27,161 bases of DNA, taken from positions 1-27,161 of IMG/VR virus record IMGVR_UViG_3300043331_001321; one strand, given 5' to 3'. The notes below the pieces were generated by a model, which was given only the letters and a program-made list of their open reading frames with translations, did no database searches and was not told the origin of the DNA. Positions 18,104 to 23,710 of this stretch are shown one piece after another (position 1 is the first letter of the stretch; every line of letters begins with the position of its first letter). The position numbers and the translations under genes were made by a program. This DNA comes from a virus.

Positions 18104-18405
18104 AACGCCCACCATTGCTCATGGATGACCTCGTTTAATTCCGCGCGTCGAAACCTGATTTTCTGCTCCAAAATTGGCCAGTCTTGAATCGCCATATGAC
18201 GTTCGACGTAATTCCGGCTTTTAAGCAGTCGGCGTGCAATCATGATCTGGTCTTCAAGGGTAAATATTTCAGCGAGCAATTCCTTGGCCCGCTTCGGCAA
18301 ATATCCAAGCCAGCACGCGACCGTCACAAGCCATAGCCGCTTACGCCGGTCTGTAAAATTCGCGGATACGAAACTCTTTAGGCCATTCATGAATGCTTGC
18401 GCCAT
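18100..18405 (-). CDS. Hypothetical protein, 101 aa
   Basis: Helical and Arg/Leu-rich (KRLWLVTVACWLGYLPKRAK, LEDQIMIARRLLKSRNYVER, LEQKIRFRRAELNEVIHE). It overlaps the end of the DUF5131 gene by 65 bases, or 50 if the ATG at 18390 is used; neither start has a good SD. The pattern suggests a compact helical bundle. Function unknown. Confidence 0.58.
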   Translation of the reverse strand: MAQAFMNGLKSFVSANFTDRRKRLWLVTVACWLGYLPKRAKELLAEIFTLEDQIMIARRLLKSRNYVERHMAIQDWPILEQKIRFRRAELNEVIHEQWWAL

Positions 18406-19246
18406 GACGCCAATCCTGCAAGTCTAAAACGACTGCCCCATCCACCGGCAGCGCTCCGAGTTGTTTGACGAATACCGGCACACCTTTATCCTGGCAATCG
18501 TGAATAATTTGCAACGCATGATCCAAACGAAACGGGCGCACTTTATTTTGCGCCTGCTTGCTTTCGCCCTCGATAATAACCCAATCTAGTTTGCCGCCTT
18601 TGTATTCAAGTCGAAGGTCGGTGAATCGTGTCCCTGACAAATAATCACACTCGACTACTTTGTTTATGATTTGCAGGTCGCTCTGCGGTGCGGGCATATT
18701 GGGTACTTTTACGCGCCGAAGATTCACTTCGCCGAGCATTGGTCCAATCGACACACCGCGTCGCCACGCTGGAATAGCGAACAACTTTCGCAAATCGCGC
18801 TCCGCTTCATGTTGATTTACGATAGTAGCCATCATGACGACATTAGGATAGCCAGCACCCCAATCATCGGGCAGCATCCGTTCGACATTGCCGATTCGTT
18901 TGGTGAGAAGTAGCCAGTCTAGATGATCTTGGGTATCGCGGATTATTCTCCACATCAGCGCGCGCTTCTCATCGCCATTTGGCGCTTCGCTATCTGCCCA
19001 ATCTCCCATTGACATACAGAAGACTCGCTTTCGAGAACCGCCGCTAGCCGCGCGCGCCCATCTATAAGGCTCCGCAAAATGACTCCCAGGAAATTCCCGG
19101 TATACGCCCTTCCATGCATTGCCGAAACCGGTAAACTTTGCCCATTCGCGGGCATAGCAACTATCACAGCCGGGGGATACCTCCCGGCATCCCCACCAAA
19201 GGTTAAAAGTATGATCACACCAGGGAATAGCCGACTCTTTACCCAT
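18341..19246 (-). CDS. DUF5131 (phage Gp37/Gp68) three-Cys protein
   Basis: 301 residues. The N-terminus carries IPWCDHTFNLWWGCREVSPG then CDSCYA: a C-x6-C-x2-C-Y three-Cys cluster found in DUF5131/Gp37-Gp68 proteins, reminiscent of but not identical to the radical-SAM C-x3-C-x2-C site. Later family markers are present: RRGVSIGPMLGEV, a VIIEGESK segment and VPVFVKQLGALP. The family is common in phages and prophages, often next to a TcmP gene; the enzyme activity is not established. Start ATG 19246 is used because CGGAGA is well spaced from it; ATG 19252 is too close. Confidence 0.88.
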   Translation of the reverse strand: MGKESAIPWCDHTFNLWWGCREVSPGCDSCYAREWAKFTGFGNAWKGVYREFPGSHFAEPYRWARAASGGSRKRVFCMSMGDWADSEAPNGDEKRALMWRIIRDTQDHLDWLLLTKRIGNVERMLPDDWGAGYPNVVMMATIVNQHEAERDLRKLFAIPAWRRGVSIGPMLGEVNLRRVKVPNMPAPQSDLQIINKVVECDYLSGTRFTDLRLEYKGGKLDWVIIEGESKQAQNKVRPFRLDHALQIIHDCQDKGVPVFVKQLGALPVDGAVVLDLQDWRHGASIHEWPKEFRIREFYRPA

Positions 19247-19580
19247 TTGCATTCTCCGATAGCTCGTTTATTGCGCTTTGCGGCACCCTGTATCCAAGCC
19301 CCCGTAGTTCTTCGAGCCACGCCGCCGCTTCGCGGTAACTCAACCCGCTCCGCATCTCTCCGGCATATCGCCGCTGGTGAGGCAAGTAGGGCAGCTCTTG
19401 CCATTGCTTCCAGGCTTTCCGATACCACAGCCAGGCCAGCGCATCACCACACCACGGGATTTCGGGCGATGGCACAGGACACCATTGAGTCGCGACATGC
19501 ACGGTCACACCGCCACTCATATCGTCATAAGCGTACACATCGCAGCGAAATTGCATGCTCGAAAATCTACAATAGCTCAC
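19239..19580 (-). CDS. Conserved phage hypothetical protein, 113 aa
   Basis: Begins MSYCRFSSMQFRCDVYAYDD, a start I know from many small phage proteins of unknown function that then continue with a VTVHVA segment, as here. The Trp-rich middle (ALAWLWYRKAWKQWQELPYL) and a helix with SGLSYREAAAWLEELRGLGY follow. The start is GTG at 19578-19580, with GTGGGA about nine bases upstream. It is the first gene after promoter A, so its mRNA should begin near 19600. Confidence 0.78.
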   Translation of the reverse strand: MSYCRFSSMQFRCDVYAYDDMSGGVTVHVATQWCPVPSPEIPWCGDALAWLWYRKAWKQWQELPYLPHQRRYAGEMRSGLSYREAAAWLEELRGLGYRVPQSAINELSENANG

Positions 19581-19634: not shown

Positions 19635-20318
19635 CTACTTTCTTTCAACCCGCCAGTCGCCCCCCTTAAGAGTTATAATTTCTCCCATCTCGACAAGTCT
19701 AGATGCGAGCCGATCATCGATTAGCTCCGCGACCTTTTCAAGAGTTAAATTGCTAGTTATTACAGTCTGACGCATATCGTTGTAGCGCCAGTCTAAGATC
19801 AAATACATCTGCTGCCGCGACCAGTCGGAAATTCGCTCAGCTCCTAAGTCATCGATTACTAAAAATGGCGTTGTGCCATAGTGGCGAATTGTCGCCCTCT
19901 CGTTCCCCTCGTCGATACTGGACTTTAAATCCAACAATAACCGTGCCGACGAAATAAACACGGGGATGCTCCGAATAGCGAAATGCTTCGAATAATACAA
20001 AAGCGCCAGCCCATAGGCCATGTGAGTTTTGCCAACGCCTGGAGGGCCGCTAATAAACGCGCTCTTGCCTCTAGATATCGCCTGGCGCGCTAAATCGACT
20101 TCCGCTTCATAGCCTTGGAAATTACTCAGAGACTTGCCGATAAAGCGAGCCGGGATACCTAGCCGGTCGTTGGCTACGCACGAGCGCCCGTTAACAATCT
20201 TTTCTTCAATCTTCTCTTCATCGACCACCGGCCTCGGTTTTACCAATGCGGACTTATCTCGAATCGCATCAACCAAATTTGTGATACTTGCCGGTGTGTG
20301 GTCTGACTTTGTTTCCAT
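19635..20318 (-). CDS. DnaC/IstB-like helicase loader (AAA+ ATPase)
   Basis: 227 residues. Walker A GPPGVGKT (91-98) and Walker B FLVIDDLG (152-159), with an Arg/sensor region near the end (VITSNLTLEKVAELIDDRLA then SRLVEMG). This is the layout of DnaC and of the ATPase beside phage initiators (the gene P role): it loads the host replicative helicase at the origin. The N-terminal ~60 residues are the likely helicase- or initiator-contacting part. ATG 20318 has AAAGG at good distance; GTG 20327 is an alternative. It overlaps the initiator gene by 50 bases. Confidence 0.9.
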   Translation of the reverse strand: METKSDHTPASITNLVDAIRDKSALVKPRPVVDEEKIEEKIVNGRSCVANDRLGIPARFIGKSLSNFQGYEAEVDLARQAISRGKSAFISGPPGVGKTHMAYGLALLYYSKHFAIRSIPVFISSARLLLDLKSSIDEGNERATIRHYGTTPFLVIDDLGAERISDWSRQQMYLILDWRYNDMRQTVITSNLTLEKVAELIDDRLASRLVEMGEIITLKGGDWRVERK

Positions 20319-21045
20319 CGATGCCACCTTTCTTTTTTCCCAGCCCGTTAATCCTGGTTATAAACACACCAAGGGTATGACCAGTCTTCTGAATGAAGTC
20401 GTCGTTTTGTAGAAAAAATTCATCGATCTTTGCTTTCACGACATCGATATCTCCGAACGTGGCCAATGACCGTTTAACAGCCATTGCGTCCTTACCGCCC
20501 GCGAAGTGATACTTCTCGTTGTGGACAATCAGATACTTCTCGGCCCAATAGTCTATCAAGAGTTTTATGCGCGGATCGGGTGCTGTCTTATTCTTATAAG
20601 ACAGCTTCTTATCGTATCGTATCGTATCGTTAAGAGAGGCCCTTTGCGCACTTTCGCGCTCTTCTGCGGCAATCTGCGGCAATTCGCGCTGTTGTGCGTC
20701 AGTATGCGGCAACACGATGCGCCGCTCCTTGGGAATGTAGCTCTGATAACGGTAGAATGATTCAGGGGGGAAGTAGATGCGGTCGGCGTGTTTAACTAAA
20801 AGCCTGGTATCTTCAGCGCTTAGGACTGCCAGGGCGTCGGCGACATTTTCTGGAGTCTTGTCGCGGCGACCTGGAATAACCAGATACATAAGCTCTTCGG
20901 GGTCTGCTGGTAGTGAACAGTCATCATCTGCATGCGCAATCATCCATGTGTAGAGAAGCACCGGAAAGTCGCCATGAGTCATCCCAACACGGTTCAAAAC
21001 CTTGTCGTGGGATATCTTCGTGCTCAAATCCCGTCGTCTAGCCAT
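20269..21045 (-). CDS. Phage replication initiator (gene O / DnaT-like role)
   Basis: 258 residues. The N-terminal ~100 residues (MARRRDLSTKISHDKVLNRV, FPVLLYTWMIAHADDD, PGRRDKTPENVADALAVLSA) match the winged-helix start of phage replication organisers. The linker from about residue 112 to 150 is built from sequence repeats (LPHTDAQQRE, LPQIAAEERE) and a pentanucleotide run coding NDTIRYDKK. The C-terminal domain has LLIDYWAEKYLIVHNEKYHF and HTLGVFITRINGLG. It immediately precedes the DnaC-like loader. It probably binds the repeat array within its own gene. ATG 21045 is chosen for its spacing from GGAG; 21048 is nearly equivalent. Confidence 0.82.
   Translation of the reverse strand: MARRRDLSTKISHDKVLNRVGMTHGDFPVLLYTWMIAHADDDCSLPADPEELMYLVIPGRRDKTPENVADALAVLSAEDTRLLVKHADRIYFPPESFYRYQSYIPKERRIVLPHTDAQQRELPQIAAEERESAQRASLNDTIRYDKKLSYKNKTAPDPRIKLLIDYWAEKYLIVHNEKYHFAGGKDAMAVKRSLATFGDIDVVKAKIDEFFLQNDDFIQKTGHTLGVFITRINGLGKKKGGIDGNKVRPHTGKYHKFG
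20582..20605. repeat. Perfect 10-bp hairpin in initiator gene
   Basis: GCTGTCTTAT (20582-20591) and its exact reverse complement ATAAGACAGC (20596-20605) flank a 4-base loop. It lies between the pentanucleotide tract and the C-terminal domain coding region and codes for a KLSYKNKTA linker. It may be an extruded structure at the origin, or a translational pause in the mRNA. Not followed by a U-tract, so not a terminator. Confidence 0.8.
20611..20630. repeat. Pentanucleotide tandem repeat (ATCGT)x4
   Basis: Four exact ATCGT copies in the initiator linker. Five is not a multiple of three, so gain or loss of one unit would shift the reading frame of the initiator. Runs of this kind (coding DTIRYD-type peptides) occur in the linker of phage replication organisers. 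It may form an easily melted part of the origin; it is also a potential slippage site. Confidence 0.85.
20645..20714. repeat. Iteron-like array, probable replication origin
   Basis: Seven 10-base units in exact register from 20645: TGCGCACTTT, CGCGCTCTTC, TGCGGCAATC, TGCGGCAATT, CGCGCTGTTG, TGCGTCAGTA, TGCGGCAACA (plus strand), consensus YGCGNYNNTN. At a larger scale 20653-20682 and 20683-20712 are a 30-bp tandem repeat identical at 25 of 30 positions. The array lies inside the initiator gene ahead of the pentamer run and hairpin, the arrangement known from lambda ori within gene O. The origin call is an inference. Confidence 0.65.
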
Positions 21046-21198
21046 CATCGCTCCACAAAGGGCGAACGCGGATTGCCGCACTATGCCGCAAAATAGCGCA
21101 CCCTGATAAATCAACTATTTACAAACATTCGTCGAAACACACGTCCCATCGGTGTGACGATAATGGTTAACAAATGGGACAGTAGAGGCTAAATTTTT
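21046..21198 (-). promoter_or_regulatory. Leader/control region of the initiator gene
   Basis: Non-coding. Contains two TGCCGCA sites 10 bases apart (21074-21080 and 21084-21090), the same 7-mer as in the in-gene array but in opposite orientation; a 7-bp inverted repeat GTCCCAT...ATGGGAC (21143-21149 / 21174-21180) with a 24-base spacer; and, on the minus strand, an AT-rich TTGTAAATAGTTGATTTATC. The GGAG for the initiator is at its lower end. No -35/-10 pair is convincing. The TGCCGCA pair could let the initiator repress itself. Confidence 0.5.
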
Positions 21199-21938: not shown

Positions 21939-23519
21939 TCACCACGCACACAGCTCCGAGCTGGCCCTAATTGAACCACGTTCCGGCGCAGTCAGCAGCT
22001 TGCGCGCCATCAACCGGGAAATATATTCATCGCGGCTTGACCGCTTGTATGTCAAGTTTAAATCATCTCGCTTCACTGAGCCTGGATATACATCTATAGC
22101 AGCATCGAGAATTGCTCGCTCGCCTGGAGATAATCGCTGCCGCCAGTATGCTAACAAGTTCGCGCCGGTAGGCAATGGTGCGAAATTGCTCCCCAGCGTG
22201 CGCATGCCAAGCTGCGTCGCCTTAAGGGTCTCGCCAGATTGTTCTATTAGCCCCTTGGACTTCAGTCGGCTAATAAACTCATCGCGGCTGGAGCGTTTGT
22301 ATCCCGTCAGCACTGATAGCTGATCGCGCGTTACGCCATTGTATTGCGCGGCGGCAACTAACACTTTCATCTCGCCGCCTTGCTTTAGGGCATCAGGCTT
22401 AGCCGTGCCAGTATCTGATTTTTTAATCGGCCTGGCTGAGTCGAGGCCCGTACAGCCGCGCACAAACTCGGTTTGCGGCTTGCGCGAGCCGGAGTCAATA
22501 CCAAGCACGACTGGAGCTGATAGCGCGACTTCGCTCACCCTCAAGTGCGATGCCTCAGTTAGCGATTCTGCCAAGCGCGAGCATGTCTGGCGCAATGTTT
22601 CATACGATGCGCGAACGTCGGTAAGTTGTTTTTGCAACGCTTCAATATGCGGCACATGGACGGTATCGCGGGCCTGCTGTTCCTGGGTTCTACCCCGTAG
22701 GTATTCTTCCGCGACCTGTTTGCGAAGCGCGGCGATTTGTTTTTTCAGCTCGTTTGGGTCATCGGCCCTTGCCTTCTCGATTGTCGCCGCCATGCGCTCG
22801 CGGTACTTCTCAAGGTCCGGCTTTGTTGGCCGTCCTGGCGCTTTAAGAGACTTGCCCGGTCTTGGAGTAGCTGAGCTATCGAACGTGTCGGCTAATTTGA
22901 TCTGAACTTCACCCTCGAAATCTAACCATTCCGGCGACACGACCAAAGCCCGACCACGGGGCAATTTTCTTAGTCGCGCTACCAGTTCCTTGTGGCGCTC
23001 TTTTGGAATATGCTCGCCAAACCAATCGACGATGGACGCAATGGAATTTGGCCCAGCGGTTTGAAAGGCAACCATGCATTCGGCCAGCTCCGACACGGAT
23101 TTATTCATACGCGCTGAGCGCTGAGTAATAAGCGTAATGCCCATCCCGTAATTCCGCCCCCATTCCACAGCCTCTTCGATTGCCCCAATGCAATCGGCGA
23201 TATCGAGCGACCCCTTCATTGCGATCTGAGGCACAAATCTGCCAGCTTCGTCGATTATCAGCATCAAGGGATGGCGCTTCTCGCCTTGCCGTTGAAAGAG
23301 CCGCCTCACAAAATCGCGCATAAACCGGATGCGCTCGCCGTTCGACCAGCTCTCGCCGTTCGCGCGCCTCATTACGATGATCGTGCTGCATTGCTCATCC
23401 GCGACAAAATCGGCGACGACATGCCCAGCCCCAGCCTCAATTGGGATATCGCCGTGTGTACCACCAAGGATGACGCAATTGACCCCTGGTTGATTGCCGG
23501 GCCGTGCTGAAGACCCCAC
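21939..23519 (-). CDS. HerA/FtsK-like ATPase, C-terminal part (frameshifted)
   Basis: Open frame of 526 codons that begins inside the ATPase domain: GVNCVILGGTHGDIPIEAG, then the Walker B LMLIIDEAGRFVPQ (about residue 86-99) and GMGITLITQRSARMNKSVSE, typical of HerA-type hexameric pumps. After it come a coiled coil (residues about 230-310) and two winged-helix units with almost identical recognition segments, YKRSSRDEFISRLKSKGLIE and YKRSSRDEYISRLMARKLL. Its Walker A is in the -1-shifted frame at 23372-23710. It may be one 590-residue protein interrupted by a one-base deletion near 23510, or made by frameshifting. HerA ATPases drive DNA translocation or act with nucleases in processing and defence. 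Confidence 0.78.
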   Translation of the reverse strand: MGSSARPGNQPGVNCVILGGTHGDIPIEAGAGHVVADFVADEQCSTIIVMRRANGESWSNGERIRFMRDFVRRLFQRQGEKRHPLMLIIDEAGRFVPQIAMKGSLDIADCIGAIEEAVEWGRNYGMGITLITQRSARMNKSVSELAECMVAFQTAGPNSIASIVDWFGEHIPKERHKELVARLRKLPRGRALVVSPEWLDFEGEVQIKLADTFDSSATPRPGKSLKAPGRPTKPDLEKYRERMAATIEKARADDPNELKKQIAALRKQVAEEYLRGRTQEQQARDTVHVPHIEALQKQLTDVRASYETLRQTCSRLAESLTEASHLRVSEVALSAPVVLGIDSGSRKPQTEFVRGCTGLDSARPIKKSDTGTAKPDALKQGGEMKVLVAAAQYNGVTRDQLSVLTGYKRSSRDEFISRLKSKGLIEQSGETLKATQLGMRTLGSNFAPLPTGANLLAYWRQRLSPGERAILDAAIDVYPGSVKRDDLNLTYKRSSRDEYISRLMARKLLTAPERGSIRASSELCAW

Positions 23520-23710
23520 CAGACATCAAGCGGGTCTGTTACGCAAAACCGCAAGTGGTTTTTGGACAACTCTTCGGCAAAGGCCCGCCCGAAATTGGTC
23601 TTGCCCTTGCCCCTACCGCCATAAACGACCAGCGTGCTCGTTACCGCATCGGTTCCAAAGCAAAACGGCTTCGCGCTCGTGCTATCTCCTATTGTGCCAA
23701 TGGTTATCAC
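23372..23710 (-). CDS. HerA/FtsK-like ATPase, N-terminal part (frameshifted)
   Basis: Open frame of 112 codons with a Walker A (VVYGGRGKGKTNFGRAFAEE) and the strand-loop CVTDPLDVWWGL that leads into HerA-family ATPases. After WWGL the frame loses similarity; the expected continuation (SARPGNQPGVNCVILGG) is in the -1 frame. So residues up to about 67 belong to the ATPase and the last 45 are probably out of frame. GTG 23708-23710 overlaps the XRE stop as GTGA. See the partner ORF at 21939-23519. Confidence 0.75.
   Translation of the reverse strand: MITIGTIGDSTSAKPFCFGTDAVTSTLVVYGGRGKGKTNFGRAFAEELSKNHLRFCVTDPLDVWWGLQHGPAINQGSIASSLVVHTAISQLRLGLGMSSPILSRMSNAARSS

Follow-up and report, generated by a model that had tools for sequence, protein, structure and literature searches.

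The origin of phage lambda lies in the middle of gene O, where its repeats are flanked by an AT-rich tract, and the gene for a replication partner comes next (PMC7466680). In phage SPP1, oriL is likewise located inside initiator gene 38 and consists of direct repeats and an AT-rich unwinding element, at which a loader and the helicase act (PMC6316719). In the mycobacteriophages Miko, Rachaly and Jeeves, repA is both necessary and sufficient for autonomous replication, and the authors of that study suspect a lambda-like origin inside repA or adjacent to it, with no repeats identified (PMC7157519). Few phages of this kind have an experimentally determined origin. Among plasmids with iterons, self-repressing Rep proteins are served by inverted iteron copies in the rep operator.

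Here, we analysed an entire virus record of 27,161 bp (hereafter, the window), which carries portal, terminase and replication genes. Our analysis suggests, with a probability that we put at roughly 80%, that positions 20582-20714 are a phage replication origin embedded in the gene for its own initiator protein. The interest of the locus lies mostly in the generality that was revealed by comparison with other phage initiators.

The initiator and its neighbouring genes

The gene that contains the repeats, the domains of its product and the gene that follows it are as follows.

20269-21048, minus strand: initiator gene, an open reading frame of 259 amino acids
Residues 8-99 of the initiator: N-terminal winged helix (AlphaFold2 pLDDT of 92-96 across most of it)
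Residues ~111-155: disordered linker (AlphaFold2 pLDDT below 50 across most of residues 122-154)
Residues 159-235: C-terminal helical domain, from the predicted structure
19635-20327, minus strand: DnaC/IstB-like helicase loader (Pfam IstB_IS21, 2e-17; PHROG DnaC-like helicase loader, 1e-42)

The ATG at 21048 is the likely start of the initiator, because it is preceded by GGAG and homology begins there; an alternative, longer reading from a TTG in the same frame would cover the upstream array described below. In a fold search of the predicted structure, winged-helix folds align to residues 4-102. The search yielded generic winged-helix matches alone, including the PhoB effector domain on its box, with no Foldseek E-value of 0.001 or less and with Z below 8. 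The protein has no direct match in the Pfam, PHROG or NCBIfam profiles. A tblastn search found the replication initiation protein of Moorella phage MCACPph1 (E 3e-11), which itself matches PHROG 270 and 16167, and DnaD-domain proteins of Paenibacillus phages. In addition, a profile of the relatives that was built without the window record matches the window initiator at E 4.3e-5; matching the window protein to an alignment in which it was itself included was circular, and that result was discarded. By sequence, the window initiator is thus related, though distantly, to the PHROG families of winged-helix replication initiation proteins.

The loader gene starts at GTG 20327 or ATG 20318 and overlaps the 3' end of the initiator gene. 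Ten genes located downstream of the initiators of relatives were tested, yielding four DnaB helicases (L014, L018, L019 and L053) and three G39P-type loaders (L044, L052 and L068), each directly downstream of the initiator, and three unrelated genes. Elsewhere among annotated phages, the initiator is followed by DnaC-like or ATP-binding proteins. A single-sequence search for a DnaC-like loader beside the relatives' initiators found none, and it was family profiles that gave the other loaders and helicases.

Two further genes of this part of the record deserve mention. A DUF5131 gene (18341-19252, minus strand; Pfam E 1.5e-44) is located in the replication half of the genome. On the other side of the initiator, a HerA/FtsK-like ATPase gene (21939-23710, minus strand) seems to be divided in two by a change of frame near 23,520, with the Walker B motif in the open reading frame 21939-23519 and the Walker A motif (GGRGKGKT) in another frame upstream. 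This frame change may represent a sequencing error, decay or a programmed shift.

Repeats within and upstream of the initiator gene

The following elements were identified in the DNA that encodes the linker and in the region preceding the start codon.

20645-20714, plus strand: module 1, seven 10-bp units in exact register in linker-coding DNA, a putative initiator-binding array
20610-20630, plus strand: module 2, four tandem pentamers (TATCG/ATCGT), from TRF
20587-20636: 50-bp segment of lowest stability in the record, from a nearest-neighbour stability scan, a candidate unwinding element
20582-20605: perfect 10-bp hairpin with a 4-nt loop, from inverted-repeat analysis
21061-21100, minus strand: second array of four 10-bp units, non-coding, a candidate operator, from inverted-repeat analysis and the unit model

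All of the repeats inside the gene had been listed in the original prediction, with coordinates that proved exact to the base. The units of module 1 (TGCGCACTTT, CGCGCTCTTC, TGCGGCAATC, TGCGGCAATT, CGCGCTGTTG, TGCGTCAGTA and TGCGGCAACA) all start with YGCG, and the third of these is the best unit. TRF recovered the predicted 30-bp tandem at 20653-20712, with 25/30 (83%) identity, and the four predicted pentamers. The array itself encodes residues ~111-135, at and within the predicted disordered linker, and all of the repeats together encode residues ~111-155, which is the linker of the initiator. Because the gene is on the minus strand, the order in the coding direction is the 10-bp array (20714 to 20645), the pentamers (20630 to 20610) and the hairpin (20605 to 20582).

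The array is the strongest 10-bp periodicity of the record. Its lag-10 identity is 36/60, and the highest-scoring 70-bp interval of the 27-kb record, with a value of 37, starts at 20641, whereas the next best value elsewhere is 30. The maximum was 34 in 300 Markov-shuffled 27-kb sequences, and recoding the peptide synonymously 20,000 times gave at most 35 (P < 5e-5). In the original prediction, the 10-base phase would put successive units on one face of the helix, as for an initiator filament, which is one of its weaker points.

The pentamer stretch also exceeds synonymous recoding (P = 3.5e-4). An easily unwound segment adjoins the repeats, and the AT content of 20582-20635 is 65%, compared with 48% for the record. 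The hairpin is present as had been described but is not remarkable, since one was found in the record against 0.2 expected by chance; it may be coincidental, and we rejected it as a functional element. A change in GC skew near 20.6 kb, which the original prediction had offered as a check, was not seen. The cumulative curve has its only turn near 25-26 kb, at the switch of the gene strand, and GC skew is therefore uninformative either way.

The second array was absent from the original prediction. Its units (TGCGCTATTT, TGCGGCATAG, TGCGGCAATC and CGCGTTCGCC) are located 13-52 bp upstream of the initiator ATG and are inverted relative to module 1. When the record was scored with a model derived from the intragenic units, no other place outside module 1 came close: the 3-unit score is 29.2 here, whereas 200 random 27-kb sequences reached 21.6 at most. 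The clear arrays of the record are those at these two places. The existence of a non-coding copy is direct evidence that the units are DNA signals, and its position suggests autoregulation of the initiator. No such non-coding array was found in the relatives, and we therefore rejected it as a family trait. Upstream of the second array, the AT-rich (61%) intergenic stretch 21101-21198 contains further dyads and is likely to serve as promoter region for the initiator operon; the minus strand yielded no sigma-70-like promoter.

Selection acts on the DNA of the modules and not only on the peptide. No match to close DNA relatives of the phage was found among phage records, nor were close relatives of the loader and terminase of the window found in IMG/VR, and codon conservation was therefore measured in related initiators rather than in the window's own gene. 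Where amino acids are unchanged, identical codons are used at 158 of 168 positions (94%) in the modules and at 952 of 1333 (71%) in the rest of the gene (Fisher P = 3e-12), as counted in eight gene pairs hand-picked to share few sequences. When all pairs, which overlap, were pooled, the values were 82-83% in the modules and 59% elsewhere. An exact 21-mer is common to module 1 of the window and the phage loci L014, L015 and L016, and exact 19-21-mers are common to the window and L014, L015, L016 and L018, the initiators of which are only ~16-23% identical to that of the window. Among the relatives, the motif is not tied to one strand of the gene; together with the codon conservation, this agrees with selection on DNA.

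The two-module layout in other phage initiators

A gene-blind motif scan of IMG/VR with the pattern YGCGGCAANNYGCGGCAANNYGCG identified 19 contigs, in nine of which the array is located within the linker of a winged-helix initiator. The motif-found initiators that were tested match PHROG replication initiation families, and the array is often accompanied in these contigs by adjacent sequence of low complexity, for example (GAATCC)n, (CTTATC)n or purine-rich repeats. A protein search identified 49 IMG/VR loci encoding relatives of one motif-found initiator. Their linkers contain 10-bp-phased arrays, many of them of other sequence (TGCAAGCAGA and TGATATCA types), followed by tandems of AATCC/CGAATCC, ATCGAG or GATACCC. 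Twelve phage records from other hosts add more versions of the layout: phages of Mycobacterium and Propionibacterium contain TCGCGA at 11-bp spacing and then 8-bp GGAACAGG tandems, and those of E. coli, Pseudomonas and Bordetella contain GCACCATGCAA-like sites at 11-bp spacing and then TGATTCC.

To quantify the layout, we used 38 initiators, consisting of 26 representatives with <75% identity (the window included) and the 12 phage records, and a cut-off set at the 95% limit of 691 control coding segments, which ~5% of the controls exceed. A 10/11-bp-phased array (module 1) is above the limit in 32 of the 38 initiators and a 5-8-bp tandem array (module 2) in 31, the window included; among the initiators not selected by the motif, the corresponding numbers are 23/29 and 24/29. 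Module 1 precedes module 2 in 24 of the 26 genes that have both. By comparison, 11% (module 1) and 0% (module 2) of the winged-helix halves of the same genes are above the limits. The window itself has values of 22/30 for module 1 and 19/24 for module 2, both exceeding the 95% control limit, with the modules in the same order. The lag-10 periodicity exceeds synonymous recoding in 22 of the 26 representatives. The layout is therefore conserved across phage initiators; the arrays of the relatives differ in sequence, and the likeness is partly one of layout and period.

Module 2 or the linker is unusually unstable in three of the 26 representatives, one of which is the window, and we therefore rejected easy unwinding as a general sequence property. 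As instability is not general in the relatives, the conserved feature may be the tandem module rather than AT-richness. Comparison of the repeat classes with the residues of the winged helix revealed no clear pattern, and common descent confounds this comparison. A motif scan of bacterial genomes was set aside: of the 100 stretches listed, only L081 and L099 are located within a profile-recognised initiator, and most of the others resemble random hits, as a collection of such size would yield.

Several other observations were made in the course of this survey. The actinophage initiators L172, L173, L176, L177 and L182 contain a near-invariant 8-bp tandem of GGAACAGG (three to four copies) after TCGCGA or TTCCGG sites, and this region is a candidate origin for many phages of Mycobacterium, Gordonia and Propionibacterium. 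In L009, L011, L016, L025, L027 and L031, GCGCGCGC runs (alternating purine-pyrimidine) stand beside the two modules. A TGCGGCAAGG 10-bp array is also present at L012 8121-8144 and L013 5551-5574 in a different kind of gene, which encodes a helix-turn-helix (HTH_3-like) protein of 227 aa; the array comes directly after the DNA-binding domain, and this protein is possibly another type of initiator that uses the same trick. We found no description of the two-module layout in these initiator families in the open-access literature, although subscription journals may hold one.

The origin reading, its alternatives and known systems

The proposal of a lambda-like origin inside the initiator gene, made in the original prediction, is supported by the position of the repeats in the linker, by the DnaC-like loader, which Pfam and PHROG matches place directly downstream as predicted, by the conservation of the layout and by that of the codons, which goes beyond what the peptide requires. 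In the mechanism that we propose, the winged-helix domain would bind the 10-bp units in tandem, approximately one helical turn apart, and the assembled complex would open the adjacent, weakly paired pentamer segment on its downstream side. The C-terminal domain and the adjacent DnaC-like loader would then, to judge from their families, put the replicative helicase on the opened strand. Through the inverted four-unit copy before the start codon, the initiator may repress or tune its own synthesis, or the copy may pair with the origin array. Several results count against the origin reading: the GC skew does not switch at 20.6 kb, module 2 lacks unusual instability in most relatives, the second array was not found there, the initiator has no direct profile match, and the arrays of the relatives differ in sequence.

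Other explanations of the arrays must be weighed against this one. We consider it unlikely that they are operators only, bound by the initiator or another repressor that controls the initiator-loader operon, for example by looping, with the origin located elsewhere. The second array does stand at the usual place of an operator, inverted and ~350 bp away from the intragenic array, and winged-helix regulators, a group represented among the fold matches by the PhoB effector domain, can bind 10-11-bp tandem repeats. However, the relatives have the array in the linker with no upstream copy found there, the second tandem module mostly stands beside it, and the helicase and loader neighbours point to replication; moreover, a pure operator would have no reason to lie in a linker with a 5-8-bp tandem array after it. 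Somewhat less likely again is that the locus is an origin whose 10-bp units are read by a host protein or another phage protein. Near-identical TTGCCGCAGA units do occur in phages with initiators that are only ~16-23% identical, as would be expected for a conserved host protein, but within one initiator family the units vary by lineage (TGCGGCAATC, TGCAAGCAGA/TGATATCA, TCGCGA at 11 bp and GCACCATGCAA), which is more easily explained by co-evolving initiators, and the site adjoins the coding region of the initiator's own DNA-binding domain, as in lambda.

Two remaining explanations do without an origin. Repeats are common in regions such as the linker, which is predicted to be disordered and might tolerate repeats born by slippage that are neutral or matter for the peptide. 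This is very improbable and already contradicted: the 10-bp period is out of frame and is not reproduced by synonymous recoding, synonymous codon use is more conserved in the modules than in the remainder of the gene, and the motif is found in both orientations relative to the gene and in a non-coding copy. Least probable of all is a centromere-like site for partition or a hot spot of recombination at which modules are exchanged. Centromere sites, too, typically contain short tandem arrays, and phage replication genes are mosaic, but none of the window proteins scanned (part of the open reading frames) was recognised as a partition protein, and recombination scars would not be expected to show synonymous constraint in the two modules or to keep them in a fixed order after the binding domain.

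We therefore favour an origin that is read by the initiator. Whether it exemplifies a wider class is, in our judgement, evenly balanced: the two-module layout, in which a 10/11-bp-phased binding array is followed by a 5-8-bp tandem array in linker DNA, may define a general class of origins that has so far gone undescribed and is used by winged-helix initiators in phages of Firmicutes, Proteobacteria and Actinobacteria. The second module would then serve specifically for loading or strand opening and would be more than a plain AT-rich stretch, and in the window the duplicate upstream array would couple the amount of initiator to the firing of the origin. Should the layout prove to mark origins, sequence alone would be enough to predict where replication starts in very many phages and metagenomic viruses, minimal replicons would become available for shuttle plasmids, and how a winged-helix initiator reads tandem one-turn repeats would become testable. 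The concrete question raised is the role of the conserved 5-8-bp tandem module.

Among known systems, the PHROG families 270, 1408, 2149, 5810 and 16167 share a winged-helix N-terminus and a two-module linker and, in several cases, a helicase or loader downstream; the window protein is mostly 13-23% identical to their members, with no direct profile match. The RepA proteins of Miko, Rachaly and Jeeves differ in being of plasmid type and in having 320-350 aa. As in iteron plasmids, a second, inverted set of sites, identified by sequence, precedes the initiator gene; unlike in those plasmids, the main array is located inside the coding sequence. SPP1 (gp38/gp39/gp40) resembles the window in the oriL-type position, and G39P-type loaders are located directly downstream in relatives of the window initiator. 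However, the window loader is DnaC/IstB-like rather than G39P, SPP1 has a second origin ~13 kb away, and the likeness is one of layout. Lambda and its Stx phage relatives share with the window an origin layout within the initiator gene, repeats, an AT-rich tract and a partner gene, and the order in the coding direction, from the array to the weakly paired segment, is that of lambda. Lambda-type origins contain four to six iterons, each an inverted repeat, whereas the window has seven direct-tandem 10-bp units and a pentamer array and, unlike lambda, an additional inverted array before the start codon. No relation between the initiator and lambda O was detected in Pfam, PHROG or NCBIfam, and a remote relation at the level of the fold may still exist. 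The window origin would thus work like those of lambda and SPP1 with, as far as tested, a different initiator family and different repeats.
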